This document shows positions 8,960 through 54,719 of a stretch of DNA of 64,000 nucleotides, piece by piece. The position numbers and the translations under genes are program-made. The stretch's first letter is position 1; every line of letters begins with the position of its first letter. Source of the DNA: Juglans regia (Eukaryota; Streptophyta; Magnoliopsida; Fagales; Juglandaceae); the NCBI RefSeq assembly GCF_001411555.2, contig NC_049909.1, positions 1,488,001 through 1,552,000 of the forward strand, read 5' to 3'. Under the pieces are notes generated by a model. That model was not told the origin of the DNA. It saw only the letters and a program-made list of their open reading frames with translations, and did not search any database.

Positions 8960-9412
8960 TCTACTATATATATAAATGCGAATGCCAGAGGAATAGTAGT
9001 TTCATCTAATATTTTTGTTTCTAATTTTGCCCTTCCTTGTATTCTTAAATTACCACTTTTGTTTTTCGTTTTGCTTCATCTACTAAATATTATTTTCTTT
9101 TTACATTTACGATCTTATCACTTCCTCTGACAGATTGAAACTGACTCAAATGTGAAACTTAATATTTTCCTTCCATTCGTGCTCTCTCTATCTATTCTCG
9201 CTTTCTTAAAAAAAAAAAAACATTCTCCGTGTGTTTCGAATTGCTTCTTCTCCTTAATTTCGGTAGTGCTAGGTATGCTTCTTATTGTTTCTTATCTCAA
9301 TGCTGCATGAGTGAATTTTTTACACTATAATCACATCATACGCATATACATGACAGCAAAAAAACCCAAACAGAATAAAAACTATATTTGTATATTCACA
9401 TCTGATCAGGTG
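8960..9412 (+). mobile_element. Helitron 5'-end fragment, same family as the 19-40 kb array
   Basis: From TCTACTATATATATAAATG the plus strand matches the complement of an array unit for about 450 bp. It passes the GCCAGAGGAA, CTCGCTTTCTTAAAA and CACATCATACGCATATACATGACAGC landmarks and diverges after CACATCTGATCAGG. The base before the TC is A, as required for Helitron insertion between A and T. Only one partial unit is present, in opposite orientation to the large Helitron nearby. No matching 3' hairpin and CTAG was found, so its right limit is open. Confidence 0.7.
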
Positions 9413-10587: not shown

Positions 10588-10614
10588 CTAGTAAGGTCAA
10601 CGTGTGTTGCACGT
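10588..10614 (-). other. Helitron 3' terminus: hairpin plus CTAG
   Basis: On the minus strand ACGTG-CAACA-CACGT forms a perfect 5-bp stem (10614-10600). It is followed by TGACCTTA and then CTAG, with T as the next host base. This is the canonical termination structure of plant Helitrons. Confidence 0.85.
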
Positions 10615-10636
10615 ATGCCCAGATAATAGAACTAAA

Positions 10637-10797
10637 GAAAATAAACATGAACTTTACATACAAGTAATCACCCTATTTAAGTATATAATTACAATAGTGA
10701 GAAGTTTATATGAACTTAAAAGTGAAGAAATAAACATAAACTTTACATACAAGTCAGCGTCATATTTAAGAATATAATTACAATAGTGAGAAGTTTA
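10637..10797. repeat. Two-copy tandem duplication near Helitron 3' end
   Basis: A unit of about 73 bp starting AAATAAACATGAACTTTACA and ending AGTGAGAAGTTTA occurs at 10637-10709 and 10724-10797. The copies have several differences. It lies just inside the Helitron 3' end. Confidence 0.75.
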
Positions 10798-11040
10798 ACA
10801 AAAATTAATTTAGAGTGTTTATGATGTAGCTTAATTTATAGATTCGGCGGAAAGCACGTTGAGCTTATTTTGGCATAATTGTCAATGTTGATTCATTTAT
10901 GCGCGTAAGTGTATAATCCATTCATTTTCTAAAACTGTACTTGCAATGTTTGTTAAATATAGTAGGAGCTCCTATAATAATGAAAAAATATAAAATATAA
11001 TGCAATACGGTTTTGTGAATAAATTTATAAACATATATTT

Positions 11041-12890
11041 TACCTCGCCTGTGTGTTCGAAGAGATCAACAGCTATAGAATTCAGTATTTCTTCTGCCAT
11101 CAATCCAAAGACAACAACTGATATGCATCTAGTATCGTCCTCTATTTCTAGATAGACTTGGCAACTATAATTAATGAGAATATTATTATTGCATAATTTT
11201 GATAATTACTAAGTTATATTTATCATGTAAAAAATGATCATTTAAAATGATGAGATAAGATGCTTACTGTGGTTGTCCGATGCTCATATCTTTGCAATTA
11301 TAGTACAAGAATTTTTCATTATAATCATATTCAGTTGCTTTATTACAATTTGTACGGGACATGTAGCAGAACAACTTATGTAAGTTAAGTAATAAAAATT
11401 TTCCTTAAACTGTGAATATTGGTTTCTACATTAAAAATTGAGAAATAAATGTATAATATGAATGTAGCAGTAAAGTGAATTTAAATAGAAAGAAATAATT
11501 TAGTTTTAAAAAAGAAAGTTATGCCACCATTGGTTCTGTAGAATCAATAATTTCAGCAATCTCAGGAATTTTTGTTATCGTCTGCATGGCACTGGTTGAA
11601 GTTGATCCTCATGATGTATCTAAATTCTTGGCAATGATTTCTTCTAACAATGCATCATTTTGTGTTGTCCTAAAAAGTTAGATTAATAATTAAAGCGATG
11701 TAAATAGTAAAAAAAGGGTAATATATGCTAAAGGTATATGAAATTATGTTATAATGAATGAAACAATAAATAATCTAGATTTTATAAAATTAATTACTAA
11801 AATATAAACAAATGATTTACCATGTATGTAGTGAAACTGCAGGTGCTTGAAGAGGATCGATGATGAAAATACTTGTTAGTTTTGATAATAGAGAAAGACC
11901 AACATTACAAATATGTGTTAGCAAATATATAAATATATGATAAATAATCAAGAAGAATATTATTTTCAATGAGAAGTACCATTATAAGAACCAACTTTAA
12001 TTTGTGTTCCAAGAATTATTGGTTTTGCTGTAATAATGTTTGAAATTTGTTGACACTTGTCATGGAAAAATCGAGCCTAGATTGTTAAATGCAAAGGCTT
12101 CAGGCTATACAAGTTAGAAATAAAATAAAATTTGTAACAAGAAAAGTATTATAACGTATTAAATAAAAAATGCTATATATGTAATTGGGGATGTGTTTAA
12201 ACCTTTCATCAATAACTTGTATATCTTGAACTATTGTTTTTCCATGGATAGTGTTGACTTCTCTTGGTGGCATCATTTGGATTGCAACAGCTAAAATATC
12301 TATTTTATCAAAATGTTTGTTGTTAGTTCATAAGAAAACAAAAGTATATAAAAATATATATAATAGTTACCTATATAACAATTTTCTATTTCATAATCAG
12401 TATCCTTATAAGCGTCAAACTCATTGAAAGAGATGATATTGTATTCTGGAGGTTTTAGTGCTGGTTCATCATCTTTAAGATTTTCAATAATTTTCATCGA
12501 ATTGATTATCCATTGATATTGATGTACTTCTATCTTGTGTCTTGGATCTATTGCTTTCACATATGTATTGCTTATATAATAAGATTGAAAAACATGCAAT
12601 GTATCATCGCGTAGATCAATATCTCTATCAAATATTACTATATGCAACTGATTTACGTGCAAGAAAATAAACGAAAGAGCTAATCATTTAAATTTAAATA
12701 ATTAAACATTTATGTATCAATAGTAAATACAATAGAATAAATACAATAGAATATAATATTTATAGAAAAAAATTTATAAAATATAACAAATACAAAATGA
12801 TTGATACCTGAGGATCTATCAGTATGAGGTTCTGATATTTTGTTGGCGAGTTCTGTGTTATTCATTTCAGTGATTTTTCTGCAACCAGCA
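11041..12890 (-). pseudogene. RPA70-like single-stranded-DNA-binding protein, multi-exon, degenerate
   Basis: Plant Helitrons often carry a replication protein A large-subunit homologue that probably binds the displaced single strand. On the minus strand the recognisable exons are: about 12660-12390 (SYYISNTYVKAIDPRHKIE, then YQWIINSMKIIENL, a DNA-binding OB-fold segment); about 12070-11960 (ARFFHDKCQQISNII, then PIILGTQIKVGSYNG); about 11360-11275, a zinc-ribbon segment TNCNK...YYNCKDM in which the expected first Cys is Arg; and about 11167-11043 (TRCISVVVFGLMAEEILNSIAVDLF, the C-terminal RPA OB fold), which ends at a GTAAAA donor-like site. Intervening sequence is AT-rich, consistent with introns. 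The start is uncertain; an ATG near 12862 opens MNNTELANKISEP. The missing zinc Cys and an in-frame stop near 11610 argue against function. Confidence 0.6.
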
Positions 12891-14417
12891 TCTTTATTTT
12901 CCAGTTTTTGGTAACTGGAGTGATGTCTTTGATTGATGCGTAAACAGTCTGCATGTTTGCTGTATTTACAAATTAGAAGACAGAGAAATATTACTATATG
13001 TATTACAAACTCTATTATAATAAAAAAAAAGCAATAAAACACATAAATAATAACAACATTTTAAGAAAATTAATTAAGTAGAATAAAGAAAATATTCAAT
13101 TCGACTATTTATATAACATCATAATGAGTTTGTTAATTTTAAAAAATATATATACAAAATATTTTTTGTATAATTTATTTCATAATTATCAATTGTAGTT
13201 GGTCTTATAAAAATCTTTACTGAATTAGCAGTTTTGGCTCTAGATAATGCCACATATAATTGTCCATGAGAAAATATTGGTTCAGGTAAATATATTCCAA
13301 TAGAATGTAATGTTTGTTCTTGTGATTTATTTATTGTCATTGCAAAACTTAATCTGATGGGGAATTGCGTTCATTTAAATGGAAAATCATTATTCTCATT
13401 TGCATCTGGCTATATGGAATTCTAGATATAAAAACCATTTTTCCTTTGTGATGACCAACTGAAATTTTTGTATCAATGACATTAAAATTAAAATTGCAAC
13501 AAATCAATCGTGTGCTATTGCATAAACCTTATGAAGGATTTATATTTCTAAGTAACATGATGAGACAATTCTTTTTAAGCAATAATTCAAGTGGTGGCAA
13601 TCCATTTGGTGTTAAAGTATTTAAGAAATCTTTAATAACACCTTGTTGAGATGCATCAATTGTTTCATCAAAACTGTAATATCGCAGCACCATGTCACCA
13701 GTGAATTTTTTAATGACTATGACATTTATTTCGTCAACTGATTGATTTTTTGGTGTTAATATAGCTCGATTGTCATTTCAAGTAAATGATTTGAATAATT
13801 CGATATATCTCCCAAAATAGCTTATAATAAAGAATTCGAATATTCAATATCATTGTTATAAGGAATAAGCATTACTGTTGGAATTTTGATTATTTTATTA
13901 ACAATAATTGGTTCACTACCATTACCAACTTCAATCAAATAAAGGGAAAAATCAGGATCTAATCTAGCTTTCATATTTTCTATTAATTTAATTTTGATTA
14001 AAAAATACCATAAATAAGAACAAGCTAAGCTTGAATCAAATTGTTCTTCTCTTGTACTTTTACGAGTTACATGTAATACTTGATGAAAAGCTCCACAAAA
14101 AATAATAACTTTTCCACCAAAAGGGAGGTCTGTATCATTTATATCTCGCAACATTTTATCTACTGCCTCTATAGAATGTTTTCTAAACATAGGCGCTTCA
14201 TCCCAAATAATTAATTTTTCAAGACATAATAATTTATCAAGATTTCCTTATTTGCTAACATAGCATGTACTGCTTTTCTCTATATTTAATGGAATCTTAA
14301 AGTGTAAATGTGTTGTTCGGCCTTAGGTAAAATTAATGCAACAACACCAGATGATGCAGTTGCAAGTGCCATTATATGTTTCGATCTAATTTCAACAAGA
14401 AGTGCTTTATATAGAAA

Positions 14418-14441
14418 TGTTTTTCTAGTGCCAGCAGGACC
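14418..14441 (-). other. Helicase Walker A, altered (GPAGTRKT)
   Basis: Helitron Pif1 helicases normally have GPGGTGKT. Here the second and third glycines are Ala and Arg. An Arg in the nucleotide loop should impair ATP binding. The Walker B-like segment about 350 bases downstream on the minus strand also lacks its Asp (CGAFHQ where GGDFRQ is usual). Confidence 0.75.
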
Positions 14442-15160
14442 ATCAATGAAGAATGCAGTAGATTTGTCGAGAAGTAAAGTTTCAAGAATCAAATTATATG
14501 CGTGTTTTTGTTCAAAATTTAGATGGTATGATGCAAGGAGATCTTCTTCTGGAATTGTAATAGTTAATTCATTATCAATTTCTTGATGTGTAAATTAATC
14601 AGCATAAGAGAATATATCAATGAGAGCAAAATTATACATATTTGTATTTTTTTTCCATTGATTCGAGCATAAAAGAGATGTTTTGTAACACCATTTTTCT
14701 AATATTTGTTGTTGTTGTATTTGTTAAATAAAAATCTGCAGACATTTCTTTTTCAAATCGTTCCAAAGTTCTTTTGGATTTGTAGGATTACAATACACCA
14801 AAATTATTGCAAAAATACTCCTTAGGCTGTTTAGCATTTGGTATAAATAAGCTTCTTTTAAACATTCTTCTAAACTATTATATTTGTTCAATAGGCCATG
14901 TAAATTAGCTGCTTTACAAAATGTTGGTATAACAATGCCATTAATTGTTTTTAAATCTTCTAATGATTTTGATCCTTTAATGTGATTCAGTAATATTCGT
15001 AAGTAATATCTTTCACCTTCAATTGGATTTACAATGACAATTCGGCCTATAACAACAGTTTTATATAAATGTAAGTTTTTTGTTTTATCAGGTATTTCTG
15101 CTGAAACAATTTCATCGAAAGATTCAAGGGCATAAATTTGCCAATCTTTTTGTAGTATTA

Positions 15161-15185
15161 TTAAGAAATGAACATGTGATAAGCC
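15161..15185 (-). other. HUH metal-binding motif of Helitron Rep
   Basis: The minus strand encodes GLSHVHFL, matching the His-hydrophobic-His motif that binds the catalytic metal in rolling-circle endonucleases. It is preserved although the tyrosine-bearing part downstream is deleted. Confidence 0.85.
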
Positions 15186-16959
15186 TCTTTTCTGTTTCTC
15201 AATTGTGTAAACATATGCTGCAACTTTACTAAAAATTTCTTGCTTGAATAACTCGTTTTTTAAATCTTCTAATTTTGCTCTAAAGATCGCGCAATTAAAT
15301 CAGGACGATTTTGAACTTCTGCATGTCGCTTTTATTCATCTAAAATTTCTTTCCAACTTGGATTGCATGTCATAGTTAAGAAAATGTCAGGTTTGCCAAA
15401 ATTTTGAACTAATGCCATTGCTTCTATATATCTCTTGTGCATATTTCTTGGGCCTCAAATAAAATATAAAGGTAAGATAATACGTCTTCCAATTTTAGAG
15501 GCGTTAGTTTTTCCAATTGAAATACTATCGACAATATCTTGATATACATCTGATCTAATTTCTTGTTGTTTTGAATGGAAATAATTTAATTTTGATGTTT
15601 CAATTTTAATGTACATGTCAACAACAAATTGTTGTAATAAATGACCAGATTATAATAGAATTGATTTGTTGTGTTGTCTAATTTTTAATTTGAAACAATA
15701 ATATTCATGGCACGAAACTGTTGGTTGTTTCCTCTTCTTCTTCAAAACTACAAAAATTATGGGAAGAAAGTTAGAAATAAACATATGAAAATTTAAATAA
15801 AGAAGTTAGAAGAGTTAAAGTTATTTCTGCCTTTGTCTTCAGTTCGAAGTAGTTTTTCTGCATTATTTGATTGTTGGAGATTAGTTAGTGTTATGTTTGA
15901 TTGTTTAATAATATTGTTCATTTTTTTAATTTTTCAATTCCTTCATGCCAACCAGAATCACCAAGAAGAAATAACAATGAATATTGAAGTGAATCATAAC
16001 AATCAAAATAATATTGAACAATATGATTTCCACCTGTATGACTAAAAACAATAATGTTTCGACCTGTTTCTTCTGTATAATTGTTAGATTCAGTCCAAAT
16101 AGCTACAATTTGTGATACTGATGAGGCATTAAAAGCATGTTGATCCAACCCAACATCTGATGTTATGTGAATTATATGATTTTCGAGATTTGGAATGTTG
16201 CTCAAATTTCGGAAGAAACGAGTATATGGATTAACCCTAAGTATAGCCATCAGTTGACTAATAATAGAAGGATCTAATCTTTCTACATCATTAATACGAT
16301 TTTCTAATTCTTCAGTATCATAAAGTATAGCTGCAAATATGAAGGACATCCATCTTCGAGAATTAAATCATTAATATAATGATAGATCTGTCCTTGAACT
16401 CTAAATATGTAAATTCCTTTGTTTCTTCTACATAAATTTGAATCGAACTTAACTCCAAATGATGTAAAGGCGAATTTATTATTGTATGTATGCACATATG
16501 TACGGAAATTTTCAGATTCACTTGAATTAGAAGTAAATAATTGATAATTTAATCAGTAATTTGACTAAAAGCTAATGATATGGTTCCACAAGCGCAACAA
16601 AAACATTTGGTTCATGATAAAAAAATTTTGGCCCACAATGTTTACATGACGGTATTAATGGTAAATAATCTGGTTCAAGAATTGTAGAGTATAATATTTG
16701 TTTAAAATAAGGATATTTGCCTTGTCGTTTTCCTATATAACAAAAAGAAATAATAAATTAATTGAAGATAAAGTATTAAATGTTGATGTAAAAATTAATG
16801 AAAGAATGTGTTAATTTGTACTTTACCCGAATCAAAATTTGACGTGCTTTCAAAATTGAATTACTCTTCATTTAGATAATTAACCTATGGAAGAATTTTT
16901 TTTCTTAATATTTATTGAATAGAATGAGAAAAACAAATGAAGGAAATGTTTTTTAATAA

Positions 16960-17270
16960 GAAATGGTTATGAATAAACCTGATCGCTCAACATTGAAGTA
17001 GAGGTATCGTTATGGACGTTAGTTTTAAAAGAATTGATATTCGAAGACGATCCAATTTCTCTTATACAAATGGCTTCATTGTCGTTTGAACAAAAAGAGA
17101 GCATGCTGAGATTGTGTTTGCCTTCGCATTTTCTTATTTGAAAGTTTTTTCAACTTAGCATATCTCTCTCTCTCTCTCTTTTTTTTTTTTTTTTTTTATG
17201 GATCTCTTCTTTTTTCAACTTTGATTGAGCACTATACCAATTTCTTCTTGCCTGATATTTTTCACGCTCT
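16960..17270 (-). other. Possible N-terminal exon region of Helitron protein
   Basis: The minus strand contains a basic segment EREKYQARRNWYSAQSKLKKE (about 17265-17210), then a Lys/Arg-rich stretch encoded by a T/CT-rich microsatellite (17160-17198), then a polar Ser/Asn-rich segment ending near 16980. Position and polarity fit the poorly conserved N-terminus of the Helitron protein, but I cannot match it to a domain. Confidence 0.4.
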
Positions 17271-19197
17271 TCAAAGTTTATTAATAGAATAAGTTAGATA
17301 AAATTAAATAAAATTGGTGTTAATAACATTTAAATATATTTTTGCATTTAATAATGTTGTCTTACCAATTAGAATAAAGTTATGGAGGATTATAAATTAT
17401 TTGTCGATTTCAAAGTGTAATCTAAAAAATATTTGAAAACGTATCAAAGATGTGGGTAGATATGTATATATGGCGACATATATATATATATATATATCAA
17501 ATATTATAAGCATTTATTGTAAAAGAAAAAAAAGAAAATAATTAATTCGAAATAAATTCATACAGATCATAATAAGTGAACCAAATGAAATAGTAGATCT
17601 TAAAATAGAACAAATCTATTAAAAGAAATCAATATCATGAGGAAAGGAAATATTCATGCAACAAACATATAATGTCAACAATTTATCTTGACTACAGGTG
17701 CATTTATATAAATATGAAAAAATTGAATAATATTTTTTCAGATGAGATAAAAGAAAACATACTGGAAAGTAGATGACGAACAAAAGAACAGTGCAAATAG
17801 AATAAATTGATAACAACCCGATTGCCTAACAGTAAAGTAAGAGCAAATCTATAAAAAACAACATACAATACATTAGAAAAAATATTCTAACAATAATAAC
17901 AGATTAAATAAATAAATTCAGTATTTATAGGAAAAAAATTTGAAGGAAAAAAACAATACATTAAATGAAATTTATTATCAATACTATTTTTAATAAATCA
18001 TATAAGAAAAAGAAAATAAAAACAAATAAAAGGCTGTAAAAGAACCACAAAAATGAAAATCATTGGAAACGCTACTTTTTTTTTTATTTTTTTGGTTTTC
18101 GTTATAGTCTTTGTACAAATAAACTACTGTTTATCAAGCTTTTGGAAATTTGCCACCAAACTTTGGAAACAATGGTACTAAGTACTGAGTACCGGATCCG
18201 TGTACGCAAAGAATATGTTTTAAGTCTACGTTGACCTTCGGTTATTTATTACTAAAGTCACTAATTAAAGCAGCCTGTGATCATATAATATTGCATTTAG
18301 AACGGTAAACATGCATGCATGTACTCCCTCAGACCTCAATTGCTAGTTTGGACCAAAACCATAAATTTATATATCATTTTTCTTGGAAAAGTTAACGTGA
18401 AGATGCTTGATTGATCGGTTTTATACTCTGCACTTACAATTTATTAAACACAAGGTATTATTATATTTCAATTAATTATTTTTTTAAAAATATAACTTTC
18501 ATGTTACCATATATATATATATATACGTCTTATTATTAAATTTTTCTCATGGAATTTATTATCAATCAATCTTGATGATCATCAATATTAGACTGTTGAT
18601 AATATAAAAAAAAAAAAAAGTCATTTATTTTAAAGATGTAGAGGTTTTCCTTCCAAAAACCATAAATAAACATATTGTAAAAATAAAAAAATAAAAAAGG
18701 CAGGTGTGTTGGTTAGCACAATTTTCTTCTTAATTTGTCCTAAGGCAAATACAAAATACCAAGATAAAAGAGGCAACAACATCATACAATCAAATCATCC
18801 AGAAACAATTCAAGGCATTAATTTCTTTTACATCGAACTATTGCATGCAACCCAAAAATTGAATACACGATCAAAATTATTTAATTCAGGAGAAACAATA
18901 CGAAAACTTTTATACTAAGCCGCAGCTAGAATCTAGGATAAATATGCCAGAAGATATTGTTAACAATCATGTGAATAAGCAAAATAATTATTACAAAATA
19001 TAAATATGAACTGTTCTATATTAAAAGGGATCAGGACATGCCGAAAAGTAGGAGACCAATAAAAGGCAAGCAAAAACATATTAGGAATAATACAAAATAC
19101 AATAAATTGGAACATATTATTTACTTTGTAATAGATATATGAATCTATTTGAATTATCAATAAACAAAATTTCCACGTGTTATTAGGTTCCATGTAC
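17271..19197. other. AT-rich Helitron leader, no gene seen
   Basis: About 1.9 kb between the RepHel remnant and the first array unit. It contains a TA microsatellite (17478-17497), poly(T) and poly(A) runs, and only short open frames lacking family resemblance. It is probably the original Helitron 5' leader or intron region. Confidence 0.55.
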
Positions 19198-19410
19198 AAT
19201 TCATATACTAAGTGAAAATTTAATAAATCATGTGCTAGAAGCTATGTCCACAAATATGTAACAATGTGTTTTTTTTTTTTTTTTTCCTTTCAAACCAAAA
19301 AAGAAGTATGCTTTATTTTAAAATGGGATTTATTAAAACAAATCAAGGGCATAATTTTAAGACCTTACAATATTTTTTCTTAAACCCTCTAATTTTTAAT
19401 TATTCAAGAA

Positions 19411-19767
19411 ATGACCCAAGCTTCCTTCACCATTGGATTGGTAGATGGGAAAAATATCTTGAGCTGGGTAGATCCCCACCGTTCATCCTCTTTAGCTTAT
19501 AAAGCAAGACTGACGAAAAGTGACTTAAGTCCCTTTTCCCTTATGAACCCGTCAGTCTCCTCAAGCAAAGAAGAAAAAGTTTTCTTCTCCTCCAAGCCTC
19601 CACCTTCATCTCCTTCCTTCCTCGTCTCTTTTCATCCTCAAGAGATCAAATGTTCCTCTCCCCTTCTCCAAGCCGTGCGACTCACAAGCAAGAGAGGAAA
19701 TGGTTTCCTTCCTAGACGAATGATGCTCACTTCTCTTTATCCATTTTCAGTTTGTTTCCAAGTTTGA
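19411..19767 (+). other. Recurrent short open frame in array units
   Basis: A plus-strand frame of up to 118 codons, antisense to the Helitron. It has a core like DPHRSSSLAYKARLTKSDL, then SLMNPS, then EEKVFFSSKPPPSSPSF, then QAVRLTSKRGNGFLP. It recurs with variations at about 22177, 23534, 30413, 31736, 33155, 34520 and 37142. It is Ser/Pro/Lys-rich, matches no family I know, and is broken by indels in other units. It may be a captured 5' exon or leader sequence. A real protein is doubtful. Confidence 0.3.
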
Positions 19768-22700
19768 ATCCAAACTTTCTATTAGGGTCATACATTCCTT
19801 TCTTGAAGGTAAAACCCTTTTGATTCCCTTTCTATTATGGTTTTGAATTGGTTTCGATTTTCTCCAAGTAAGGTTACCTATGGATGTTCGGTTTGGGTTT
19901 TGCTTTTCACGCTACCTAGATTCTTTTTGTGTTGTCAGTACATCGGTTTGTTGCTTGTCTCCCTCTCTCCTAAACTACAAGCAAATATGAATAATTTATT
20001 CACTGTGATTGGGTTTTTTTTGTGTCATATATATCCGTATGGATTTGTTTGATTTTGTTGGGGTTATTTTCTATAAAGTACTGATCAACCTGATCATATG
20101 TGAGTATTCAAATATGGTTTTTATTCTGTTTGACTTTTTTTTTATTGTCATGTATATGCGTATGAAGTGATTATAGTGTAAGAAATTCACTCAAGCAGCA
20201 CTGAGAGGAGAAAGAATAAGAAGCATACCTAACACTGCTGAGATTCAGGAGGAGGAGCAATTTGAAACACACGGAGAATATTTTTTTTTTTTAAGAAAGC
20301 GAGAATAGAGAGAGCACAAACGAAGGGAAAATGTTAAGTTTCATTTTCGAGTCATTTTCAATCTGTCAGAAGAAGTGATAAGATCGTAAATGTGAAAAGA
20401 CAATAATATTTAGGCGGTGAAGCAAAACTAGAAACAAAAGTGATAATTTAATAATACAAGGCAGGGCAAAATTAGAAAAAGAAATATTAGACAAAAATAC
20501 TGTTCCTCTGGCATTCGCATTTATATATATAGTAGAAATACATATTACAAACGAAAAAATTTAATAAATCATGTGCTAGTAGCTTGGTCTACAAACATGT
20601 AACAATGTGTTTTTTTCTCATTTAAAATCAAAAATAAAGTGTGCTTTATTTTAAAATGAGAATTATTAAAATAAATCGATGGCATAATTTTTAGACCTTA
20701 CAATATTTTTCTGTTATGCCCTCTAATTTTTAATTATTCAGGAAATGACCTAACCTTCCTCCACTATTGGATTTGTAGGTGGGAAAAATATCTTGAGCTG
20801 CGTAGGTCCCCACCGTGCATCCTCCTTAGCTTATGAAGCAAGATTGACCAAAAGTGACTTAAGTCCCCTTTCCCTTATGAACCCGTCGGTATCCTCAAGC
20901 AAAGAAGAAAACGTTTTCTAATCCTCCAAGCCTCGACCTTCATCTCCTCCAGGCCTCCACCTTCATTTCCTTCATTCCTCATCTTTTTTCATCCTCAAGA
21001 GATCAAAGCTTCCTCTCCCAGTCTCCAAGCCGTGCGACCCACAACCAAGAGAGGGAATGATTTCCTTCCCACCTAGCCGAATTATGCTCACTTCTCTTTG
21101 CCCATTTTCTGTTTCTTTACAAGTTTGAATCCAAACTTTCTATTACGGTCTTACCTTCCTTCCTTGAATGTGAGACCCTTTTGACTCACGTTCTATTGTG
21201 GTTTTGAATTGGATTTTCTCCAAGAAAGGTTACCAATTGACATTCAAATAGGGATATGTTTTCCACGCTGTCTAGATTCTTTTTGTGTTGTCAGTACATC
21301 GGTTCTTTGCTTGTCTCCCACTCTCCTAAACTGCGAGCAAATCAGAGGATTTCCCTACTGAAGTTATGAAAATCGAAAGGTTTTATTCACTGTGATTGGG
21401 TTGTTTTTTTGTGTCATGTATATTCGTATGGATATGTTTGATTTTGTTGGTGTTATTTTCTATGAAGTACTGATCCACCTGATCAGATGTGAATATTCAA
21501 ATACGGTTTTTATTATGTTTGAATTTTTTTTGCAGTCATGTATATGCGTATGATGTGATTATAGTGTAAGAAATTCACTCACGCAGCACTGAGAGAAGAA
21601 AGAATCAGAAGTAGACCTAACACTGCCGAGATTCAGGAGGAGAAGCAATTCGAAACACACAAAGAATTTTTTTTTTAAAAAAGCGAGAATAGAGAGAGCA
21701 CAAACGGAAGGAAAATATTAAGTTTCATATTTGAGTTAGTTTCAGTCTGCTAGAGGAAGTGATAAGATCGTAAATGAGAAAAGACAATAATATTTAGGCG
21801 GTGAAGCAAAACTAGAAACAAAATTGGTAATTTAAGAATACATGGAAGGCCAAAATTGGAAAAAAAAATACTAGACGAAAATATTGTTCCTCTGGCATTC
21901 ACATTTATATATATAGTAGAAATTCATATACTAAATGAAAAAATTTAATAAATCATGTGCTAGTAGCTAGGTCCACAAACTTGTAACAATGTGTTTATTT
22001 CTCATTTCAAATCAAAAATAAAGTATGCTTTATTTTAAAATGAGAATAATTAAAATAAATCGATGGCATAATTTTAAGACCTTACAATATTTTTCTCTTA
22101 AGCCCTCTAACTTTTAATTATTCCGGAAATGACCTAACCTTCCTCCACCATTGGATTTGTAGGTGGGAAAAATATCTTGAGCTGCGTAGGTCCCCACCAT
22201 TCATCCTCCTTAGCTTATCAAGCAAGACTGACCAAAAGTGACTTAAGTCCCCTTTTCCTTATGAACCCGTATCCTCAAGCAAAGAAGAAAAAGTTTTCTT
22301 CTCCTCCAAGCCTCCACCTTCATCTCCTTCCATCCACCTCTTTTTTCATCCTCAAGATATCAAAACTTCCTCTCCCACTCTCCTAGCCGTGCGACCCATA
22401 ACCAAGAGAGGGAATGGTTTCCTTCCTTCCAAGTCGAATGATGCTCACTTCTCTTTACCCATTTTCAGTTTGTTTCCAAGTTTGAATCCAAACTTTCTAT
22501 TACGGTATTACCTTGCTTCGTTGAAAGTAAGACCCTTTGGGCTCACCTTCTATTGTGGTTTTGAATTGGTTTCGATTTTCTCCAAGTAAGATTACTAATT
22601 GATGTTCAGTTTTGGCTTTGTTTTTCACGTTGTCTAGATTCTTTTTGTGTTTTCAGTACAACAGTTCTTTGCTTGTCTCCCACTCTCCTAAACTGCGAGC

Positions 22701-26721: not shown

Positions 26722-28811
26722 AATTCATATACTAAATGAAAAAATTGAATAAATCATGTGCTAGTAGCTAGCACTACAAACATATAACAATGTGTTTTTT
26801 TCTCATTTAAAATCCAAAATAAAGTCTGCTTTATTTTAAAATGAGAATTATTAAAAGAGATCAATGGCATAATTTTAAGACCTTACAATATTTTTCTCTT
26901 AAGCCAACTAATTTTTAATTATTCCGGAAATGACCTAACCTTCCTCCACCATTGGATTTGTAGGTGGGAAAAATATCTTGAGCTGCGTAGGTCCCCACCG
27001 TACATCCTCCTTAGCTTTTGAAGTAGGATTGACCAAAAGTGACTTAGGTCCCCTTTCCCTAATGAACCCGTCGGTATCCACAAGCAAAGAAGAAAAAGTT
27101 TTCTAATCCTCCAAGCCTCGACCTTCATCTCCCCTAGGCCTCCACCTTCATCTCCTTCCTTCCTCATCTTTTTTCATCCTAAAGAGATCAAAGCTTCCTC
27201 TCCCATTCTGCAAGTCGTGCCACCCACAACCAAGAGAGGGAATGGTTTCCTTCCTTCATTGACGTACAATGTTCACTTCTCTTTACCCATTTTCAGTTTG
27301 TTTCCAAGTTTGAATCCAAACTTTCTATTACGGTCTTACCTTCCCTCCTTAAATGTAAGACCCTTTTGACTCACGCTCTATTGTGGTTTTGAATTGGTTT
27401 CGATTTTCTCCAAGTAAGGTTACCAATTGATGTTCAACTTGGGATATGTTCTCCACGCTGTCTAGATTCTTTTTGTGTTGTCAGTACATCGTTTCTTTGC
27501 TTGTCTCCCTGTCTCCTAAACTGCGAGCAAATCAAAAGATTTCCCTACTGAGGATTTGAAAATCGGAAGATTTTATTCACTGTGACTGTGTTGTTTTTTT
27601 GTGTCATGTATATTCGTATGGATTTGTTTGATTTTGTTGGGGTTATTTTCTATGAAGTGCTGATCCACCAGATCTGATGTGAATATTCAAATATGGTTTT
27701 TATTCTGTTTGAATTTTTTTCTGTGTCATGTATATGCGTATGATGTGATTAAAGTGTAAGAAATTCACTCATGCAGCACTGAGAGAAGAAAGATTAGAAG
27801 CATACCTAACACTGCCCAGATTCAGGAGGAGAAGCAATTCGAAACACACGGAGAATTTTTTTTTTTTTTTTTAAGAAAGCGAGAATGGAGAGAGCACAAA
27901 CGGAATGAAAATATTAAGTTTCATATTTGAGTCGGTTTCAGTCTGTCAGAGGAAGTGATAAGAGTGTAAATGTAAAAAGACAATAATATTTAGGGGGTTG
28001 AGACAAAACTAGAAACGAAAGTGGTAATTTAAGAATACAAGGAAGGGCAAAATTGGAAAAAAATTATTAGAAGAAAATACTGTTCCTCTAGCATTCGCAT
28101 TTGTTGGTGGGAAAAAGTAAGGTTACCTATTGACGTTCAGTTTGGGATTTGTTTTTCACGCTGTCTGGATTCTTTTTGTGTTGTCTGCACATCGGTTCTT
28201 TTCTTGTCTCCCTCAATCCTAAACTGGAAGCAAATCAAAAGATTTCCCTACTGATGGTATGAAAATCGGAAAATTTTATTCACTGTGATTGTGTTGTTTT
28301 TTTGTGTCATGTATATCCGTATGGATTTGTTTGATGTTGTTGGGGTTATTTTCTATGAATTACTGATTCACCAAATCAGATGTGAATATTCAAATATGGT
28401 TTTTATTCGGTTTGATTTTTTTTTTTTGCTGTCAAGTATATGCGTATGATGTGATTATAGTGTAAGAAATTCACTCATGTAGCACTGAGAGAAGAAAGAT
28501 TAGAAGCATACCTAACACTGCCGACATTCAGGAGGAGAAGCAATTCGAAACACATGGAGATTCTTTTTTTAAGAAAGTGAGAATAGATACACCACAAACG
28601 GATGGAAAATATTTAGTTTCATATTTGAGTCAGTTTCAGTCTGTCAGAGGAAGTGATAAAATCGTAAATGTAAAAAGAATAATATTTGGGGGGTGAATGA
28701 AAACTTGAGACAAAAGTGGTAATTTACGAATACAAGGAAGGGTAAAATTTGAAAAAAAATATTAGACAAAAATACTGTTCCTCTAGCATTCGCATTTATA
28801 TATATAGTAGA
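26722..28811 (-). repeat. Higher-order repeat copy 2 (2.09 kb)
   Basis: It has the same composite structure and the same two deletion joints as 24636-26721, with only scattered differences. Duplication as a block therefore followed both deletions and is the most recent large event visible in the array. Confidence 0.88.
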
Positions 28812-31800
28812 AATTCATATACTAAATGAAAAAATTGAATAAATCATGTGCTAGTAGCTAGCACTACAAACATATATCAATGTATTTTTTTCTCATTTAA
28901 AATCCAAAATATAGTATGCTTTACTTTAAAATGAGAATTATTAAAATAAATCAATGGCATAATTTTAAGACCTTACAATATTTTTCTCTTAAGCCCACTA
29001 ATTTTTAATTATTTAGGGAATGACCTAACCTTCCTCCACCATTGGATTTGTAGGTGGGAAAAATATCTTAAGCTGCGTAGGTCCCCACCGTTCATCCTCC
29101 TTAGCTTATCAAGCGAGATTGAGCAAAAGTGACTTAAGGTACCTTTTCCTTATGAACCCGTATCCTCAAGCAAAGAAGAAAAAGTTTACTTCACCTCCAA
29201 GCCTCCACCTTCATCTCCTTCCTTCCTCCTACTTTTTCATCATTTAGAGATCAAAGCTTCCTCTCCCATTCTCCAAGCCGTGCGACACACGAGCAAGAGA
29301 GAAAATGGTTTCCTTCCTTCCAATCCGAATGATGCTCACTTCTCTTTACCCATTTTCCGTTTGTTTCCGAGTTTGGTTCCAAACTTTCTATTAGGGTCTA
29401 ACCTTCCTTTCTTGAATGTAAGACCTTTTTGACTCCCTTTCTTTTGTGGTTTTGAATTGGTTTCGATTTTCACAAGGTTACCTACTGATGGTCAGTTTGG
29501 GTTTTATTTTTCACGTTATCTAGATTCTTTTTGTGTTGTCTATACAACGGTGCTTTGCTTGTATGCCTCTCTCCTAAACTGCGAGGAAATCAAAAGATTT
29601 CCCTTCTGAAGTTATGAAAATCGGAAGATTTTAGTCACTGTGATTGTGTTATTTTTTGTGTCATGTATATCCGTATGGATTTGTCGGGGTTATTTTCTAT
29701 GAAGTACTGATCCACCAGATCAGATGTTAATTTTCAAATATGGTTTTTGTTCTGTTTGAATTTTTTTTGGTGTCATGTAAATGCGTATGATGTGATTATA
29801 GTGTAAGAAAGTAACTAACGCAGCACTGAGAGAAGAAAGAATAAGAAGCATGCAGAACACTGCCGAGATACAGGAGGAGAAGCAATTCGAAACACATGGA
29901 GAATTTTTTTTTAAGAAAGCGAGAATAGAGACACCACAAACAGAAGGAAAATATTTAGTTTCATATTTGAGTCGATTTCAGTCTGTCAGAGGAAGTGATA
30001 AGATCATAAAAATAAAATGACAATAATATTTAGGGGGTGAAACAAAACTAGAAACAAAAGTGGTAATTTAAGAATACAAGGAAGGGCAAAATTGAAAAAA
30101 AAAATATTAGATGAACATATTGTTGCTCTAGCATTCGCATTTATATATACTGTAGAAATTCATATACTAAATGAAAAAATTGAATAAATCATGTGCTAGT
30201 AGCTAGCACTACAAACATTTAACAATGTGTTTTTTTCTCATTTAAAATCCAAAATAAAGTATGCTTTATTTTAAAATGAGAATTATTAAAATAAATCAAT
30301 GGCATAATTTTAAGACCTTACCAAATTTTTCTCTTAAACCCTCTAATTTTTAATTATTGAAGAAATGACCTAAGCTTCCTCCACCATTAGATTTATAGGT
30401 TGGAAAAATATCTTGAGCGAGGTAGATCCCCACCGTTCATCCTCCTTAGCTTATGAAGCAAGATTGACCAAAAGTGACTTAGGTCCCTTTTCCCTTATGA
30501 ACCTGTCGATATCCTCAAGCAGAGAAGAAAAAGTTTTCTTCTCCTCCAAGCCTCTACCTTCATCTCCTTCCTTCCTCCTCTTTTTTCATCCTCAAGAGAT
30601 CAAAGCTTCCTCTCCCACTCTCCAAGCCGTGTGACCCACAACCAAGAGAGGGAATGGTTTCCTTCCTTTCTACCCGAACGATGCTCACTTCTCTTGCTTG
30701 TCTTTTTTAGATTGTTTCCAAGTTTGAATCCAAACTGTCTATTACGGTCTTACCTTGCTTCCTTGAATGTAAGACCCTTTTGACTCACTTTCTATTGTGG
30801 TTTTGAATTGGTTTCGATTTTCTCCAAGTAAGGTTACCTATTGATGTTAAGTTTGGGATTTGTTTTTCACGCTGTCTAGATTATTTTTGCGTTGCCTATA
30901 CATCGGTTCTTTGCTTGTCTCCCTCAATCCTAAATTGTGAGCAAATCAAAAGATTTCCCTACTGAAGGTATGAAAATCGGAAGATTTTATTCACCGTGAC
31001 TGTGTTGTTTTTTTGTGTCATGTATATCCGTATGGATTTATCTAATTTTGTTGGGGTTATTTTCTATGAAGTACTGATTCACCAAATCAGATGTGAATAT
31101 TCAAATATGGTTTTTATTTTGTTTGAATTTTTTTTGCTGTAAAGTATATGCGTATGATGTGATTATAGTGTAAGAAATTCACTCATGCAGCACTGAGAGA
31201 TGAAAGATTAGAAACACATGGAGAATTGTTTTTTAAGAAAGCGAGAATAGGGACACCACAAACGGAAGGAAAATATTTAGTTTTATATTTGAGTCGGTTT
31301 CAGTCTATCAGATGAAGTGATAAGATCATAAATGTAAAAAGACAATAATATTTAGGCGGCGAAGCGAAACTAGAAACAAAAGTGGTCATTTAAGAATACA
31401 AGGTAGGGCAAAATTGGAAAAAAAATATTAGATGAAAATACTGTTGCTCAAGCATTCGCATTTATATATATATAGTAGAAATTCATACACTAAATGAAAA
31501 AAATTAATAAATCATGTGGTAGGAGATAGGTCCACAAACATGTAACAATGTGTTTGTTTGTCATTCCAAATCAAAAATAAAGTATGCTTTATTTTAAAAT
31601 GAGAATTATTAAAATAAATCAATGGCATAATTTTAAGACCTTACAATATTTTTCTCTTAAGCCCTCTAATTTTAAATTATTCAGGAAATGACCTAAGCTG
31701 CCTCCACCATTGGATTTGTAGGTGGGAAAAATATCTTGAGCTGCGTAGATCCCCACCGTTTGTCCCCCTTAGCTTATGAAGCAAGATTGACCAAAAGTGA

Positions 31801-34800
31801 CTTAAGTCCCTTTTCCCTTATGAACCCGTCGACATCCTCTAGCAAAGAAGAAAAAGTTTTCTTCTCCTCCAAGCCTCCACCCTCATCTCCTTCCTTCCCC
31901 TTCTTTTTTCATCCTTTAGAGATCAAAGTTTCCTCTCTCATTCTCCAAGCCGTGCGACCTACAAGCAAGAGAGGAAATAGTTTCCTTCCTTCCTAGTCAA
32001 ATGATGCACACTTCTCTTTTCCCATTTTCAGTTTGTTTCCAAATTTGAATCCAAACTTTCTGTTAGGGTCTTACCTTCCTTCTTTGAATGTAAGACCCTT
32101 TTGATTCACTTACTATTGTGGTTTTGAATTAGTTTCAATTTTCTCCAAGTAAGGTTACCTTTTGATGTTTAGTTTGGGTTTTGTTTTTCACGATAATTGG
32201 ATTCTTTTTGTGTTGACAGTACATCAATTTGTTGCTTGTCTCCCCCTCTGTTAAATTGTGAGCAAATCGGAAGATTTCCCTACTGAAGTTATGATAATCT
32301 GAAGATTTTATTCACTATGATTGGGCTGTTTTTTGGGGTCATCTATATCCGTATGGATTTGTTTGATTTTGTTGGGGTTATTTTCTATAAAGTACTTATC
32401 CACCTGATAAGATGAGAATATGCAAATATGGCTTTTATTATGTTTTCCCTTTTTTTTTTTTTCATGTATATGCTAATGATGTGATTATAGTGTAAGAAAT
32501 TCACTCATGCAGCACTAAGGGAAGAAAGAATAAGAAGCATACCTAACACTGCCGAGATTCAGGAGGAGAAGCAATTTGAAACACAAAGACAATTTTTTTT
32601 TTTTAAGAAAGCGAGAATAGAGATAGCACGAATGGAAGGAAAATATTAAGTTTCATATTTGAGTTGGTTTCAGACTGTCAGAGGAAGTGATAACATCGTA
32701 AATATAAAATGATAATAATATTTAGGCGGTGAAGCAAAACTAGGAACAAAAGTGGTAACTTAAGTAAACAAGGATGGGTAGAATTGGAAAGAAAATATTA
32801 GACGAAAATATTGTTCCTCTGGCATTCGCTTTTATATATACAGTAGAAATTCATATAATAAATGATAAAATTTAATATATCATGTGCTAGTAGCTAGGTC
32901 CACAAACATGTAACAATGTCTTTCTTTCTCATTTTAAATCAAAAATAAAGTATGCTTTATTTTAAAATGAGAATTTTTGAAATAAATCAATGGCATAGTT
33001 TTCAGACCTTACAATATTTTTCTCTTAAGCTCTCTAATTTTTAATTATTCAAGAAATGACCTAAGCTTCCTCCACCATTGGATTTGTTGGTGGGAAAAAT
33101 ATCTTCAATTGGGTAGATCCCCACCGTTCATCCTCCTTAGCTTGTGAAGCAAGATTGACCAAAAGTGACTTAAGTCCCTTATCCCTTATGAACCCCTCGA
33201 TATCCTCAAGCATAGAAGAAAAAGTTTTCTTCTCCTCCAAACCTCTACCTTCATCTCCTTCATTCCTCCTCTTTTTTCATCCTAAAGAGATCGAAACTTC
33301 CTCTCCCACTTTCCAAGCAGTGCGACCCACAACCAAGAGAGTGAATGGTTTCCTTCCTTCCTACCAGAACGATGCTCACTTCTCTTTACTCATTTTCAGA
33401 TTGTTTCCAAGTTTGAATCCAAACTTTCTATTACGGTCTTACTTTGCTTCCTTGAATGTAAGACCCTTTTGATTCACTTACTATTGTGGTTTTGAATTAG
33501 TTTCAATTTTTTCCAAGTAAGGTTACCTTTTGATGTTCAGTTTGGGTTTTGTTTTTCACGCTAATTGGATTCTTTTTGTGTTGTCAGTACATCAATTTGT
33601 TGCTTGTCTCCCCCTCTCTTAAATTGTGAGCAAATCGGAAGATTTCACTACTGAAGTTATGATAATCTGAAGATTTTATTCATTGTGATTGGGATTTTTT
33701 TGGGGTCATGTATATCCGTATGGATTTGTTTGATTTTGTTGGGGTTATTTTCTATGAAGTACTGATTCACCTGATCAGATGCGAATATGCAAATATGGCT
33801 TTTATTCTGTTTGCCTTTTTTTTTTGTCATGTATATGCATATGTTGTGATTATAGTGTAAGAAATTCACTCATGCAGCATTGAGAGAATAAAGAATAAGA
33901 AGCATACCTAACACTGCCGAGATTTAAGAGGAGAAGCAATTCGAAACACATGGACAATTTGTTTTTTTTAAGAAAACGAGAATAGACAGAGCACAGACAG
34001 AAGGAAAATATTAAGTTTCATATTTGAGTCGGTTTCAGTCTGTCAGAGGAAGTGATAAGAGTGTAAATGTAAAAAGACAATAATATTTAGGGGGTGAATC
34101 AAAACTAGAAACGAAAGTGGTAATTTAAGAATACAAGGAAGGGCAAAATTGAAAAAAAAATATTAGAAGAAAATACACTTCCTCTAGCATTCGCATTTAT
34201 ATATATAGTAGAAATTCATATACTAAATGAGAAAATTGAATAAATCATGTGCTAGTAGCTAGCACTACAAACATATAACAATGTGTTTTTTTCTCATTTA
34301 AAATCCAAAATAAAGTATGCATTATTTTAAAATGAGAATTTTTAAAATAAATCAATGGCATAATTTTAAGACCATACCATATTTTTCTCTTAAACCCTCT
34401 AATTTTTAATTGTTCAAGAAATGACCTAACCCTCCTCCCCCATTGGATTTGTTGGTGGGAAAAATATCTTCAGTTGGGTAGATCCCCACCGTTCATCCTC
34501 CTTAGCTTGTGAAGCAAGATTGACCAAAAGTGACTTAAGTCCCTTATCCCTTATGAACCCCTCGATATCCTCAAGCATAGAAGAAAAAGTTTTCTTCTCC
34601 TCCAAACCTCTACCTTCATCTCCTTCATTTCTCCTCTTTTTTCATCCTAAAGAGATCGAAGCTTCCTCTCCCACTCTCCAAGCAGTGCGACCCACAACCA
34701 AGAGAGGGAATGGTTTCCTTCCTTCCTACCAGAACGATCCTCACTTCTCTTTACCCATTTTCAGATTGTTTCCAAGTTTGAATCCAAACTTTCAATTACG

Positions 34801-37800
34801 GTCTTACCTTGCTTCCTTGAACGTAAGACCCTTTTGACTCACTTTCTATTGTGGTTTTGAATTCGTTTCGATTTTCTCCAAGTAAGGTTACCTATTGATG
34901 TTCAGTTTGGGATTTGTTTTTCACGCTGTCTAGATTCTTTTTGTGTTGTCAGTACATCGGTTCATTGCTTGTCTCCCTCAATCCTAAACTGCGAGCAAAT
35001 CAAAAGATTTCCCTACTGAAAGTATGAAAATCGAAAAATTTTATTCACTGTGATTGTGTTGTTTTTTTGTGTCATGTATATCCGTATGGATTTGTTTGAT
35101 TTTGATGGGGTTATTTTCTATGAAGTACTGATTCACCAAATCAAATGTGAATATTCAAATATGGTTTTTATTCTGTTTGAATTTTTTTTTTGTCAAGTAT
35201 ATGTGTATGATGTGATTATAGTGTATGAAATTAACTCATGCAGCACTGAGAGAAGAAAGATTAGAAACACATGGAGAATTATTTTTTAAGAAAGCGAGAA
35301 TAGAGACACCACAAATGGAAGGAAAATATTTAGTTTTATATTTGAGTCGGTTTCAGTCTATCAGAGGAAGTGATAAGATCGTAAATGTAAAAAGACAATA
35401 ATATTTAGGGGGTGAAACAAAACTAGAGACAAAAGTGGTAATTTACGAATACAAGGAAGGGCAAAATTGGAAAAAAAATATTAGACAAAAATATTGTTCC
35501 TCTAGCATTCGCATTTATATATATAGTAGAAATTCATATACTAAATGAAAAAATTGAATAAATCATGTGCTAGTAGCTAGCACTACAAACATATAACAAT
35601 GTGTTTTTTTCTCATTTAAAATCCAAACTAAAGTATGCTTTGCTTTAAAATGAGAATTATTAAAATAAATCAATGGCATAATTTTAAGACCTCACAATAT
35701 TTTTCTCTTAAGCCCACTAATTTTTAATTATTCAAGGAATGACCTAACCTTCCTCCACCATTGGATTTGTAGGTGGGAAAAATATCTTAAGCTGCGTAGG
35801 TCCCCACCGTTCATCCCCCTTAACTTATCAAGCAAGATTGACCAAAAGTAACTTAAGGTACCTTTTCCGTATGAACCCGTATCCTCAAGGAAAGAAGAAA
35901 AAGTTTTCTTCTCCTCCAAGACTCCACCTTCATCTCCTTCCTTCCTCCTACTTTTTCATCATTTAGAGATCAAAGCTTCCTCTCCCATTCTCCAAGTCGT
36001 GCGACACACAAGCAAGAGAGGAAATGGTTTCCTTCCTTCCAATCCGAATGATGCTCACTTCTCTTTACCCATTTTCCGTTTATTTCCAAGTTTGGATCCA
36101 AACTTTCTATTAGGGACTTACCTTCCTTTCTTGAATGTAAGACCTTTTTTACTCCATTTCTTTTGTGGTTTTGAATTGGTTTCGATTTTCACAAGGTTAC
36201 CTATTGATGTTCAGTTTGAGTTTTGTTTTTCACGTTATCTAGATTCTTTTTGTGTTGTGAGTACAACGGTGCTTTGCTTGTTTCCCTTTCTCCAAAACTG
36301 CGAGCAAATCAAAAGATTTCCCTACTGAAGTTATGAAAATCGGAAGATTTTATTCACTGTGATTGTGTTGTTTTTTGTGTCATGTATATCTGTATGGATT
36401 TGTTCGATTTTGTTGGGGTTATTTTCTGTGAAATACTGATCCACCTGATCAGATGTGAATATGCAAATATGGCTTTTATTATGTTTTCCCTTTTTTGTTT
36501 GTCATGTATATGCTAATGATGTGATTATAGTGTAAGAAATTCGCTCAGGCAGTACTGAGAGAAGAAGGAATAAGAAGCATACCTAACACTGCCGAGATAC
36601 AGTAGAAGAAGCAATTCGAAATACATGGAGAATTTTGTTTTAAGAAAGCAAGAATAGAGACACCACAAACGGAAGGAAAATATTTAGTTTCATATTTGAG
36701 TCGATTTCAATCTGTCAGAGGAAGTGATAAGATCCTAAATATAAAAAGACAATAATATTTAGGGGGTGAAACAAAACTAGAAACAAAAGTGGAAATTTAA
36801 GAATACAAGGAAGGGAAAAATTGGAAAAAAAAATATTAGACGAACATATTGTTCCTCTAGCATTCGCATTTATATATATTGTAGAAATTCATATACTAAA
36901 TGAAAAAATTGAATAAATCATGTGCTAGTAGCTTGCACTACAAACATATAACAATGTGTTTTTTTCTCATTTAAAATCCAAAATAAAGTATGCTTTATTT
37001 TAAAATGAGAATTATTAAAATAAATCAATGGCATAATTTTAAGACCTTACAATATTTTTCACTTAAGCTCTCTAATTTTAAATTATTCAGGAAATGACCT
37101 AAGCTGCCTCCACCATTGGATTTGTAGGTGGGAAAAATATCTTGAGTTGCGTAGATCCCCACCGTTTGTCCTCCTTAGCTTATGAAGCAAGATTGACCAA
37201 AAGTGACTTAAGTTCCTTTTCCCTTATGAACCCGTTGATATCCTCAAGCAAAGAAGAAACAGTTTTCTTCTCCTCCAAGCCTCCACCTTCATCTCCTTCC
37301 TTCCTTCTCTTTTTTCATCCTTTAGAGATCAAAGTTTCCTCTCCCATTCTCCAAGCCGTGCGACCTACAAGCAAGGGAGGAAATGGTTTCCTTCCTTACT
37401 AGTCAAATGATGTACACTTCTCTTTACCAATTTTCTGTATGTTTCCAAGTTTGAATCCAAACTTTCTATTAGGGTCTTACCTTCCTTCTCTGAATGTAAG
37501 ACCCTTTTGATTCGCTTACTATTGTGGTTTTGAATTAGTTTCAATTTTCTCCAAGTAAGGTTACCTTTTGATATTTAGTTTGGGTTTTGTTTTTCACGCT
37601 AATTGGATTCTTTTTGTGTTGTCAGTACATCAATTTGTTGCTTGTCTCCCCCTCTCTTAAATTGTGAGCAAATCGGAAGATTTCCCTACTGAATTTATGA
37701 TAATCTGAAGATTTTATTCACTGTGATTGGGTTGTTTTTTGGGGTCATGTATATCTATATGGATTTGTTTGATTTTGTTGGGGTTATTTTCTATGAAGTA

Positions 37801-39606
37801 CTGATCCACCTGATCAGATGAGAATATGCAAATATGGCTTTTATTATGTTTTCCTTTTTTTTTTTGGTCATGTATATGCTAATGATGTGATTATAGTGTA
37901 AGAAATTCGCTCAGGCAGCACTGAGAGAAGAAAGAATAAGAAGCATATCTAACACTGCCGAGATTAAAGAGGAGAAGCAATACGAAACACACAGACAATT
38001 TTTTTTTTTTTAAGAAAGCGAGAATAGAGAGAGCACGAACGGAAGGAAAATATTAGGTTTCATATTTGAGTCGGTTTCAGTCTATCAGAGGAAGTGATAA
38101 GATCGTAAATATAAAAAAACAATAATATTTAGGCGGTGAAGCAAAACTTGGAACAAAAGTGGTAACTTAAGTAAACAAGGATGGGTAAAATTGGAAAAAA
38201 AAATATTGGACGAAAATATTGTTCCTCTGGCATTCGCATTTATATATATAGTAGAAATTCATATACTAAATGATAAAATTTACTATATCATGTGCTAGTA
38301 GCTAGGTCCACAAACATGTAACAATGTGTTTTTTTCTCATTTTAAAACAAAAATAAAGTATGCTTTATTTTAAAATGAGAATTATTGAAATAAATCAATG
38401 GCATAATTTTAAGACCTTACAATATTTTTCTCTTAAGCTCTCTAATTTTTAATTATTCAAGAAATGACCTAAGCTTCCTCCACTATTGGATTTGTAGGTG
38501 GGAAAAATATCTTGTGCTGCGTAGATCCCGACCGTTCATCCTGCTTAGCTTATGAAGCAAGATTGACATAAAGTGACTTAAGTCCTTTTTCCCTTATGAA
38601 CCCGTCGATATCCTCAAGCAAAGAAGAAAACGTTTTCTTCTCCTCCAAGCCTCCACCTTCATCTCCTTCCTTCCTCCTCTTTTTTCATCCTTTAGAGATC
38701 AAAGCTTCCTCTCCCATTCTCCAAGCCGTGTGACCTACAAGCAAGGGAGGAAATGGTTTCCTTCCTTCCTAGTCAAATGATGCACACTTCTCTGTACCCA
38801 TTTTCAGTTTGTTTCCAAGTTTGAATCCAAACTTTCTATTAGGGTCTTACCTTCCTTCTTTGAATGTAAGACCCTTTTGATTCACTTACTATTGTGGTTT
38901 TGAATTAGTTTCAATTTTCTCCAAGTAAGGTTACCTTTTGATGTTCAGTTTGGGTTTTGTTTTTCACGCTAATTGGATTCTTTATGTGTTGACAGTACAT
39001 CAGTTTGTTGCTTGTCTCTCCCTCTCTTAAATTGTGAGCAAATCGGAAGATTTCCCTACTGAAGTTATGATAATCTGAAAATTTTATTCACTGTGATTGG
39101 GTTTTTTTTTTGGGTCATGTATATCCGTATGGATTTGTTTGATTTTGTTGGGGTTATTTTCTATGAAGTACTAATCCACCTGATCAGATGCGAATATGCA
39201 AATATGGCTTTTATTATGTTTGTCTTTTTTTTTTTTTTTTGTCATGTATATGCTCATGTTGTGATTATAGTGTAAGAAATTCACTCATGCAGCACTGAGA
39301 GAATAAAGAATAAGAAGCATACCTAAGACTGCCAAGATTCAAGAGGAGAAGCAATTCGAAACACATGGACAATTTGTTTTTTTTAAGAAAGCGAGAATAG
39401 AGAGAGCACAGACGGAAGGAAAATATTAAGTGTCATTTTAGTCGGTTTTTGTCTGTCAGAGGAAGTGATAAGATCGTAAATGTAAAAAGACAATAATATT
39501 TAGGCGGTGAAGCAAAACTAGAAACAAAAGTGGTAATCTAAGAGTACAAAGAATGGCAAAATTGGAAACAAAAATATTAAGCGAAAATACTATTCCTCTA
39601 GCATTC

Positions 39607-39626
39607 GCATTTATATATATAGTAGA
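39607..39626 (-). other. Outermost Helitron 5' terminus
   Basis: The minus strand reads TCTACTATATATATAAATGC with host A before the TC. This is the only array unit start with the A expected from A/T-targeted Helitron insertion; internal junctions I checked are preceded by T. Confidence 0.7.
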
Positions 39627-45085: not shown

Positions 45086-45162
45086 CTCTCCTCAAGTCAA
45101 CCGAAGAGCACTTTCTCTTGCCCCTCAATATCTCTCCCCGCAAGCCATCCCCCATATCATCC

Positions 45163-46427: not shown

Positions 46428-46430
46428 GTC

Positions 46431-54700: not shown

Positions 54701-54719
54701 ATATCAGATCTGAAGGAGA

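Follow-up and report, generated by a model that had tools for sequence, protein, structure and literature searches.

The window analysed here, a 64-kb stretch of Juglans regia DNA (C9:1488001-1552000, in a genome of 571 Mb distributed over 21,811 contigs), holds on its minus strand one Helitron of 29,039 bp, which begins with A|TC at 39626, ends with CTAG|T at 10588 and has a single 3' end. Helitrons, transposons for which rolling-circle copying is proposed, insert between A and T, and the outer borders agree with this rule, as A precedes 39626 and T follows CTAG, without target duplication. Both termini, 5' TC and 3' CTAG, are of the plant type and recur among relatives in the same genome. 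The 3' terminus (10588..10614), already placed here by the initial annotation, was read directly as a short hairpin, ACGTG-CAACA-CACGT, followed by 8 nt, CTAG and the host T; homologous 3' ends were found in relatives. The element is composed of a single-copy body (10588..19197) preceded by 16 tandem units of about 1.35 kb (39626 to 19198), in number and length as first annotated, and minus its 15 added units it would measure 9,949 bp.

Further repeats were observed in the window. A 70-bp tandem duplication (90%) lies at 10639-10797, just inside the 3' end of the element. At 1.2 kb from that end, and in the opposite orientation, the plus strand carries a further copy of this Helitron 5' end, truncated on its 3' side and beginning with A|TC (8960..9412); it is 85-89% identical to the array units, and a tree over 450 bp gave it no resolved position. 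The stretch 3970-4605 matches its own reverse complement at 79%, forming a large imperfect palindrome. Direct repeats of 219 bp, 95% identical (45162-45380 and 49733-49951), surround Pol_BBD and RVT_2 fragments, and the region 45162-49951 looks like a Copia-type LTR retrotransposon, while direct repeats of about 540 bp, 83% identical (54149-54684 and 56229-56765), surround a gag-like ORF (Retrotran_gag_2) in what looks like a truncated LTR element (54149-56765).

Coding remnants of the body

By using Pfam searches with X at stops, a frameshifted Rep (about 15159-15703), a PIF1 helicase (about 13924-14522) and a 2B domain (about 13493-13630) were located on the minus strand of the body, with coordinates derived from frame offsets. 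Helitron_like_N was matched in two frames (7e-33 and 7e-11), PIF1 likewise in two (1e-33 and 1e-15), and Pif1_2B gave a match at 1e-11. The pairing of Rep (HUH) and PIF1 helicase by which a Helitron is recognised is thus present, in domains that are spread over three frames and interrupted by stops, and the Rep/helicase remnants of the initial annotation are borne out. Its RPA remnants found no confirmation in Pfam or PDB searches: the 120-aa ORF at 12300-12662, which we take to resemble plant RPA-like proteins, had no Pfam match even at E 10 and no PDB match. An RPA-like gene is common in plant Helitrons, where it is accessory and not required.

Since the reading of Rep and PIF1 is broken, the element is dead. 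C-to-T changes, counted on both strands, were found in 9% of CG and 12% of CHG cells versus 3% of CHH cells, and this CG/CHG excess fits, as expected, a long-methylated element.

Units and junctions of the array

Read inwards from the host border on the minus strand, the array opens with units 1-4 (34213..39626; starts at 39626, 38255, 36885 and 35530), unit 1 carrying the host-flanked 5' end. Units 5-8 follow (28812..34212; starts at 34212, 32847, 31479 and 30156) and are nearest by overall identity to units 1, 2, 4 and 3, respectively. Self-comparison then delimited a block formed by unit 9, truncated to 709 bp, and unit 10 (26722..28811), and this block is 99% identical to the next one, which joins unit 11, truncated to 708 bp, to unit 12 (24636..26721); the first 14 nt are missing from units 10 (28102) and 12 (26013), the rejoining point of units 9/10 being nt 15. 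Units 13 (23278..24635), 14 (21921..23277) and 15 (20537..21920) were delimited by the same comparison. Unit 16, the innermost (19198..20536), is identified from the array and from relatives as the native 5' region continuing into the body.

Twelve units keep both the terminus and a near full length (1318-1384 bp). The statement that every intact unit starts alike holds only loosely: the 5' terminus is kept with at most three changes in 14 of the 16, unit 14 having CC in place of TC and units 10 and 12 being the exceptions, and the exact 19-mer TCTACTATATATATAAATG stands at the start of nine. As had been noted, the host A is found only before the outermost start (39626); the base is T before the other 13 starts with a terminus. 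Identity between units is about 84-99% across as much as 1.38 kb, and a reversed control pattern gave no match genome-wide, so the array is not a product of chance. Many 5' ends, one 3' end and a uniform orientation, the features of a Helitron 5'-end tandem array, are all found.

At the internal junctions the sequence reads GAATT|TC, to be compared with GAATT|GTAC at the native site and TATA|TC at the host border, and no base is shared on either side. Unit 16 (20536-19198) passes into GTACATGG, as the initial annotation had proposed in describing an innermost unit that runs into single-copy sequence. In the single-copy relatives L013, L016 and L018 the end of the unit enters the body in the same way, ATT|GTACATG, as at 19198|19197, and their native continuation, GAATT|GTACATGG, begins exactly at the point that is joined to TC in the other units. 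Because the order in these three relatives matches that of the window, unit 16 and the body are native and the other units were added; the annotated 29-kb Helitron, with only its 5' end amplified and still joined to its coding body, is in this way upheld by its relatives. Continuity across the breakpoint was also seen by alignment on C12 (L041) and on C7 (L042, with only about 12 bp on the unit side).

The array yielded no 3' terminator, in agreement with the earlier observation that no unit has the Helitron 3' hairpin: the best candidate matched 17 of 25 positions, inside the range of 200 shuffles (mean maximum 15.7, highest 19). One generic hairpin-plus-CTRR match lies outside the array, at 12888. 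A hairpin near the unit end (CTAGCTACTAG) was considered as a pseudo-terminator and set aside, because it differs from unit to unit and is about 35-40 nt short of the join. A search of unit 2 in six frames for coding or captured genes gave no Pfam match, and no RNA family was matched within the window.

Most unit pairs are 85-94% identical, and the 99% identity of units 9+10 to 11+12 marks a recent two-unit duplication. In the unit trees the inner branches are short and those at the ends long; the supported pairs are 2-6, 3-8, 9-11, 10-12 and 13-14, and also 4-7 when units 9 and 11 are left out; units 1 and 5 group with 2 and 6. The array units (14 of 16 used) stand apart from four other copies with support of 98/95, three of these copies having one flank in common, so that they may count as one insertion. 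Units 1-15 are separated from unit 16 with weak support (75/76). In a PHI-like test on 14 of the 16 units, nearby informative sites conflicted less than shuffled ones (none of 2000 shuffles as low), and this low conflict reveals exchange among units. The farther apart two units lie in the array, the less similar they are, though the trend is weak (r -0.275, p 0.005). Judged from the unit sequences, these patterns fit a history in which many units may have formed within a fairly short time and then undergone exchange and block duplication; stepwise growth would also be compatible, as exchange blurs the tree and keeps the two from being firmly separated.

Relatives and other 5' duplications in the genome

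A genome search with the 3' end, proposed in the initial annotation, returned 45 matches, and twelve besides the window are 87-90% identical over more than half of the query. The whole query aligned to its last base at four other loci: C13, C7:17817715, C16 and C7:50974615 (78%). Read directly, 3' ends are CTAG|T in L016, TTAG|T in L013 and CCGG|T in L017, with GCTAG|T on C13 and on C7 (L022), and the hairpins of relatives are GTGC-AGC-GCAC in L016 and GTGC-AGT-GCAC in L040. A complete relative of 11,453 bp lies at C7:17806263-17817715, with A|TC, body and 3' end; 262 bp upstream of its start were covered. On C12 a relative begins with TC at C12:1316703 and retains most of the body but not the 3' terminus: the match ends about 25 nt before the 3' end, with unrelated sequence after it (L041, about 150-225), and this copy was rejected as a complete relative. 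The 5' module of the window is not common to the C7 and C12 relatives beyond about nt 73. These relatives share the body and not the 5' module (C7, L042 263-2075; C12, L045/L041), and the comparison suggests that 5' modules may be exchanged within this Helitron family.

The 23-nt 5' terminus, with at most one mismatch, occurs at least 49 times in the genome and never as a reversed control. The pattern searches score the best candidates and skip very common words, so that these counts are lower bounds. Twelve of the termini belong to the window array, three to an array on C13 and 34 lie elsewhere, the plus-strand copy at 8960 included; going by the pattern searches, these 34 are probably single. 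Among these 34 listed starts, A precedes 30, the others being on C6 (G), C2 (T), C3 (T) and at C9:15243984 (C). No other pair among the 49 listed is closer than about 33 kb, except for the 8960 copy, 11.5 kb from the array. When two mismatches are allowed, a pair 741 bp apart appears on C1 (C1:15852763/15853503), which was rejected as a further terminus array since its duplication takes in about 335 bp of upstream flank.

The C13 array has three TC starts (C13:23271618, 23271040 and 23270464), with units of 576-578 bp that are 97.6-97.9% identical and joined as CATG|TC. The last unit enters native CATG|ATAGC, after which come one body and one 3' end at C13:23260370. Its breakpoint differs from that of the window and it is therefore counted as an independent event; it is the younger of the two arrays. 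The C13 junction has ATG in common with the outer flank, and the base before the outermost start is G instead of A.

Self-comparison of twelve 5' regions brought out further duplications. C12 has an internal 5' duplication of 250-260 bp whose rejoining point is close to nt 16-17. An 83-bp duplication in L017 (nt 141-294 of the alignable 5' region) and a 132-bp one in L043 (nt 452-815) lie away from the terminus, L013 and C13 have a weak second copy of 32-35 bp that starts only at nt 38, and weaker self-matches of 29-47 bp occur in L011, L013, L019 and C7. No 5' self-duplication was detected by this comparison in L009, L016, L018 or unit 16.

The 40-nt window junction, with at most three mismatches, was matched at least 11 times, and all 11 matches fall in the window array, which has 13 such junctions. 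No mobilised daughter of the array is thus among the matches listed at this threshold, in a search that saw 11 of the 13 window junctions, and nothing suggests that internal starts launched daughters. With the junction confined to the window among these matches and the coding genes broken, the proposal that internal starts serve as alternative initiation points gains no backing. The unit as an independent satellite, a finding that would tell against the annotation, did not appear among the matches listed in the genome searches.

Origin of the array

The account that we prefer, with a probability of about 0.68, is that of an old, inactivated Helitron in which Rep-initiated rolling-circle replication was aborted, a break inside the element was joined to the 5' end cut by Rep, and the resulting terminator-less unit multiplied. 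Replication would have been aborted about 1.35 kb in, and the free internal 3' end (...TATATGAATT) would have been joined to the Rep-cut 5' TC, giving a unit without a 3' terminator; copying of this unit would then have lined up 5' ends head to tail ahead of the native body, and homologous exchange and local block duplications would later have reshaped the array. The sequences themselves establish the borders, the junctions, the native continuity, the exchange among units and the further 5' duplications of the family; that Rep carried out the joining, and that the process started either from a truncated circle or from strand switching in place, is what we infer. The native continuity in L013, L016 and L018, the internal junctions set on TC with no shared base, the second array on C13, the 5' duplication on C12, the grouping of the array units apart from other copies and the exchange among units speak for this account, as does the preceding base: T before 13 of 13 internal starts versus A before 30 of 34 outside argues against nested A|T insertion and for the joining of a break to a Rep-cut end.

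The array may also have arisen in place, without a circle, from a stalled nascent strand (1.35 kb in) that Rep joined to the 5' end of the displaced strand, a version that we advance tentatively and at well under even odds. If it were true, one abortive transposition attempt would duplicate the element's own front end on the chromosome, and aborted starts of this kind would have left their traces in the 5' duplications of C9, C13 and perhaps C12.

Aborted Rep-initiated replication is weakened, and ordinary tandem duplication strengthened, by the duplications away from the terminus in L017, L043 and others, which indicate that not all duplications in the family are terminus-directed and that they arise in more than one way. 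Ordinary duplication, through end joining, slippage or template switching, would have set the left end at the 5' terminus by chance before unequal crossing-over. The C1 pair, with its host flank, is such a case, and the C13 join, where three nucleotides of possible microhomology overlap the outer flank and G precedes the outermost start, is open to the same reading; exchange and block duplications did occur later in the window array. However, the window join lacks microhomology, and in four cases (window, C13, C12 and units 9/10) the rejoining point lies within the first 17 nt. Only two of them, window and C13, are exactly at TC, the others lying 14-16 nt inside, which counts against the preferred account, as do the weak second copies of L013 and C13, which begin no nearer to the terminus than nt 38. 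Chance placement of the left end is, on this evidence, unlikely.

Still less likely is self-insertion, in which a Helitron that enters its own kind leaves a 3'-truncated 5' piece before a full element and unequal crossing-over expands it. Such an event yields many 5' termini with one 3' terminus, and according to the account in PMC5148889 it was proposed for FoHeli of Fusarium, whose authors consider that the multiple 5' termini may come from it. In the present family the native site is T|G in the window (GAATT|GTAC) and G|A on C13 (CATG|ATAG), not A|T, and A stands before no internal start of either array, although just two independent junctions bear on the point and four of the 34 listed starts outside the arrays also lack A. 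The window junction, which meets the 5' TC exactly with neither host base nor microhomology, likewise argues against nested A|T insertion. An assembly artefact, to which a tandem array lends itself, is highly improbable, even though the 99% identical units 9+10 and 11+12 are the weakest point, since the window contains no N and units mostly 85-94% identical, with unit-specific indels, offer enough differences for placing reads.

Plant tandem arrays of truncated Helitrons have been described (Xiong, Dooner, Du 2016, Plant J 88:1038, as summarised in PMC12628747, PMC8268682 and PMC5148889). In the model of these authors, a circular template that has lost its 3' terminator gives rise to tandem arrays, and in many of these several 5' ends are combined with one 3' end (PMC12628747; PMC8268682). 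As summarised there, those arrays resemble that of the window in having many 5' ends and one 3' end, with several to several hundred terminator-less units produced by rolling-circle replication; they have been reported from centromeres of plants, whereas the window array, placed by contig position alone, lies 1.5 Mb into a contig of 24.3 Mb, and it keeps a native junction into a coding body that could be matched to single-copy relatives. FoHeli of Fusarium oxysporum also repeats its 5' termini before one 3' terminus, with a duplication length that differs among copies, but it is fungal and its duplicated pieces are described as typically below 200 bp, versus 1.35 kb in 16 copies here (PMC5148889). 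Helitron/Helentron elements with satellite-like arrays likewise bear tandem repeats, in the accounts available in the element centre, whereas the window unit begins at the transposon terminus (PMC12628747). Work on Helraiser supports a circular intermediate and repeated use of the donor site (PMC5876387), and a Populus study ties Helitrons to tandem gene arrays (PMC13253262).

The window element is therefore a real, well delimited Helitron 5' array of an already known kind: it is a well-preserved further case of the plant arrays in which many 5' ends accompany one 3' end, a recognised by-product of Helitron copying. The initial description of it as unusual stands as far as rarity in this genome is concerned (two arrays versus at least 34 matches elsewhere) and falls as regards the arrangement, already described in plants. 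Helitron replication in plants has been inferred largely from its products. The value of this element lies in a native join that can be read, a body that survives and a family with more than one 5' duplication; through its single-copy relatives the position of the internal break can be examined, as can the question whether rejoining takes place at the Rep cut site, and both matter for understanding how satellites arise from Helitrons and how these elements outlive abortive replication.
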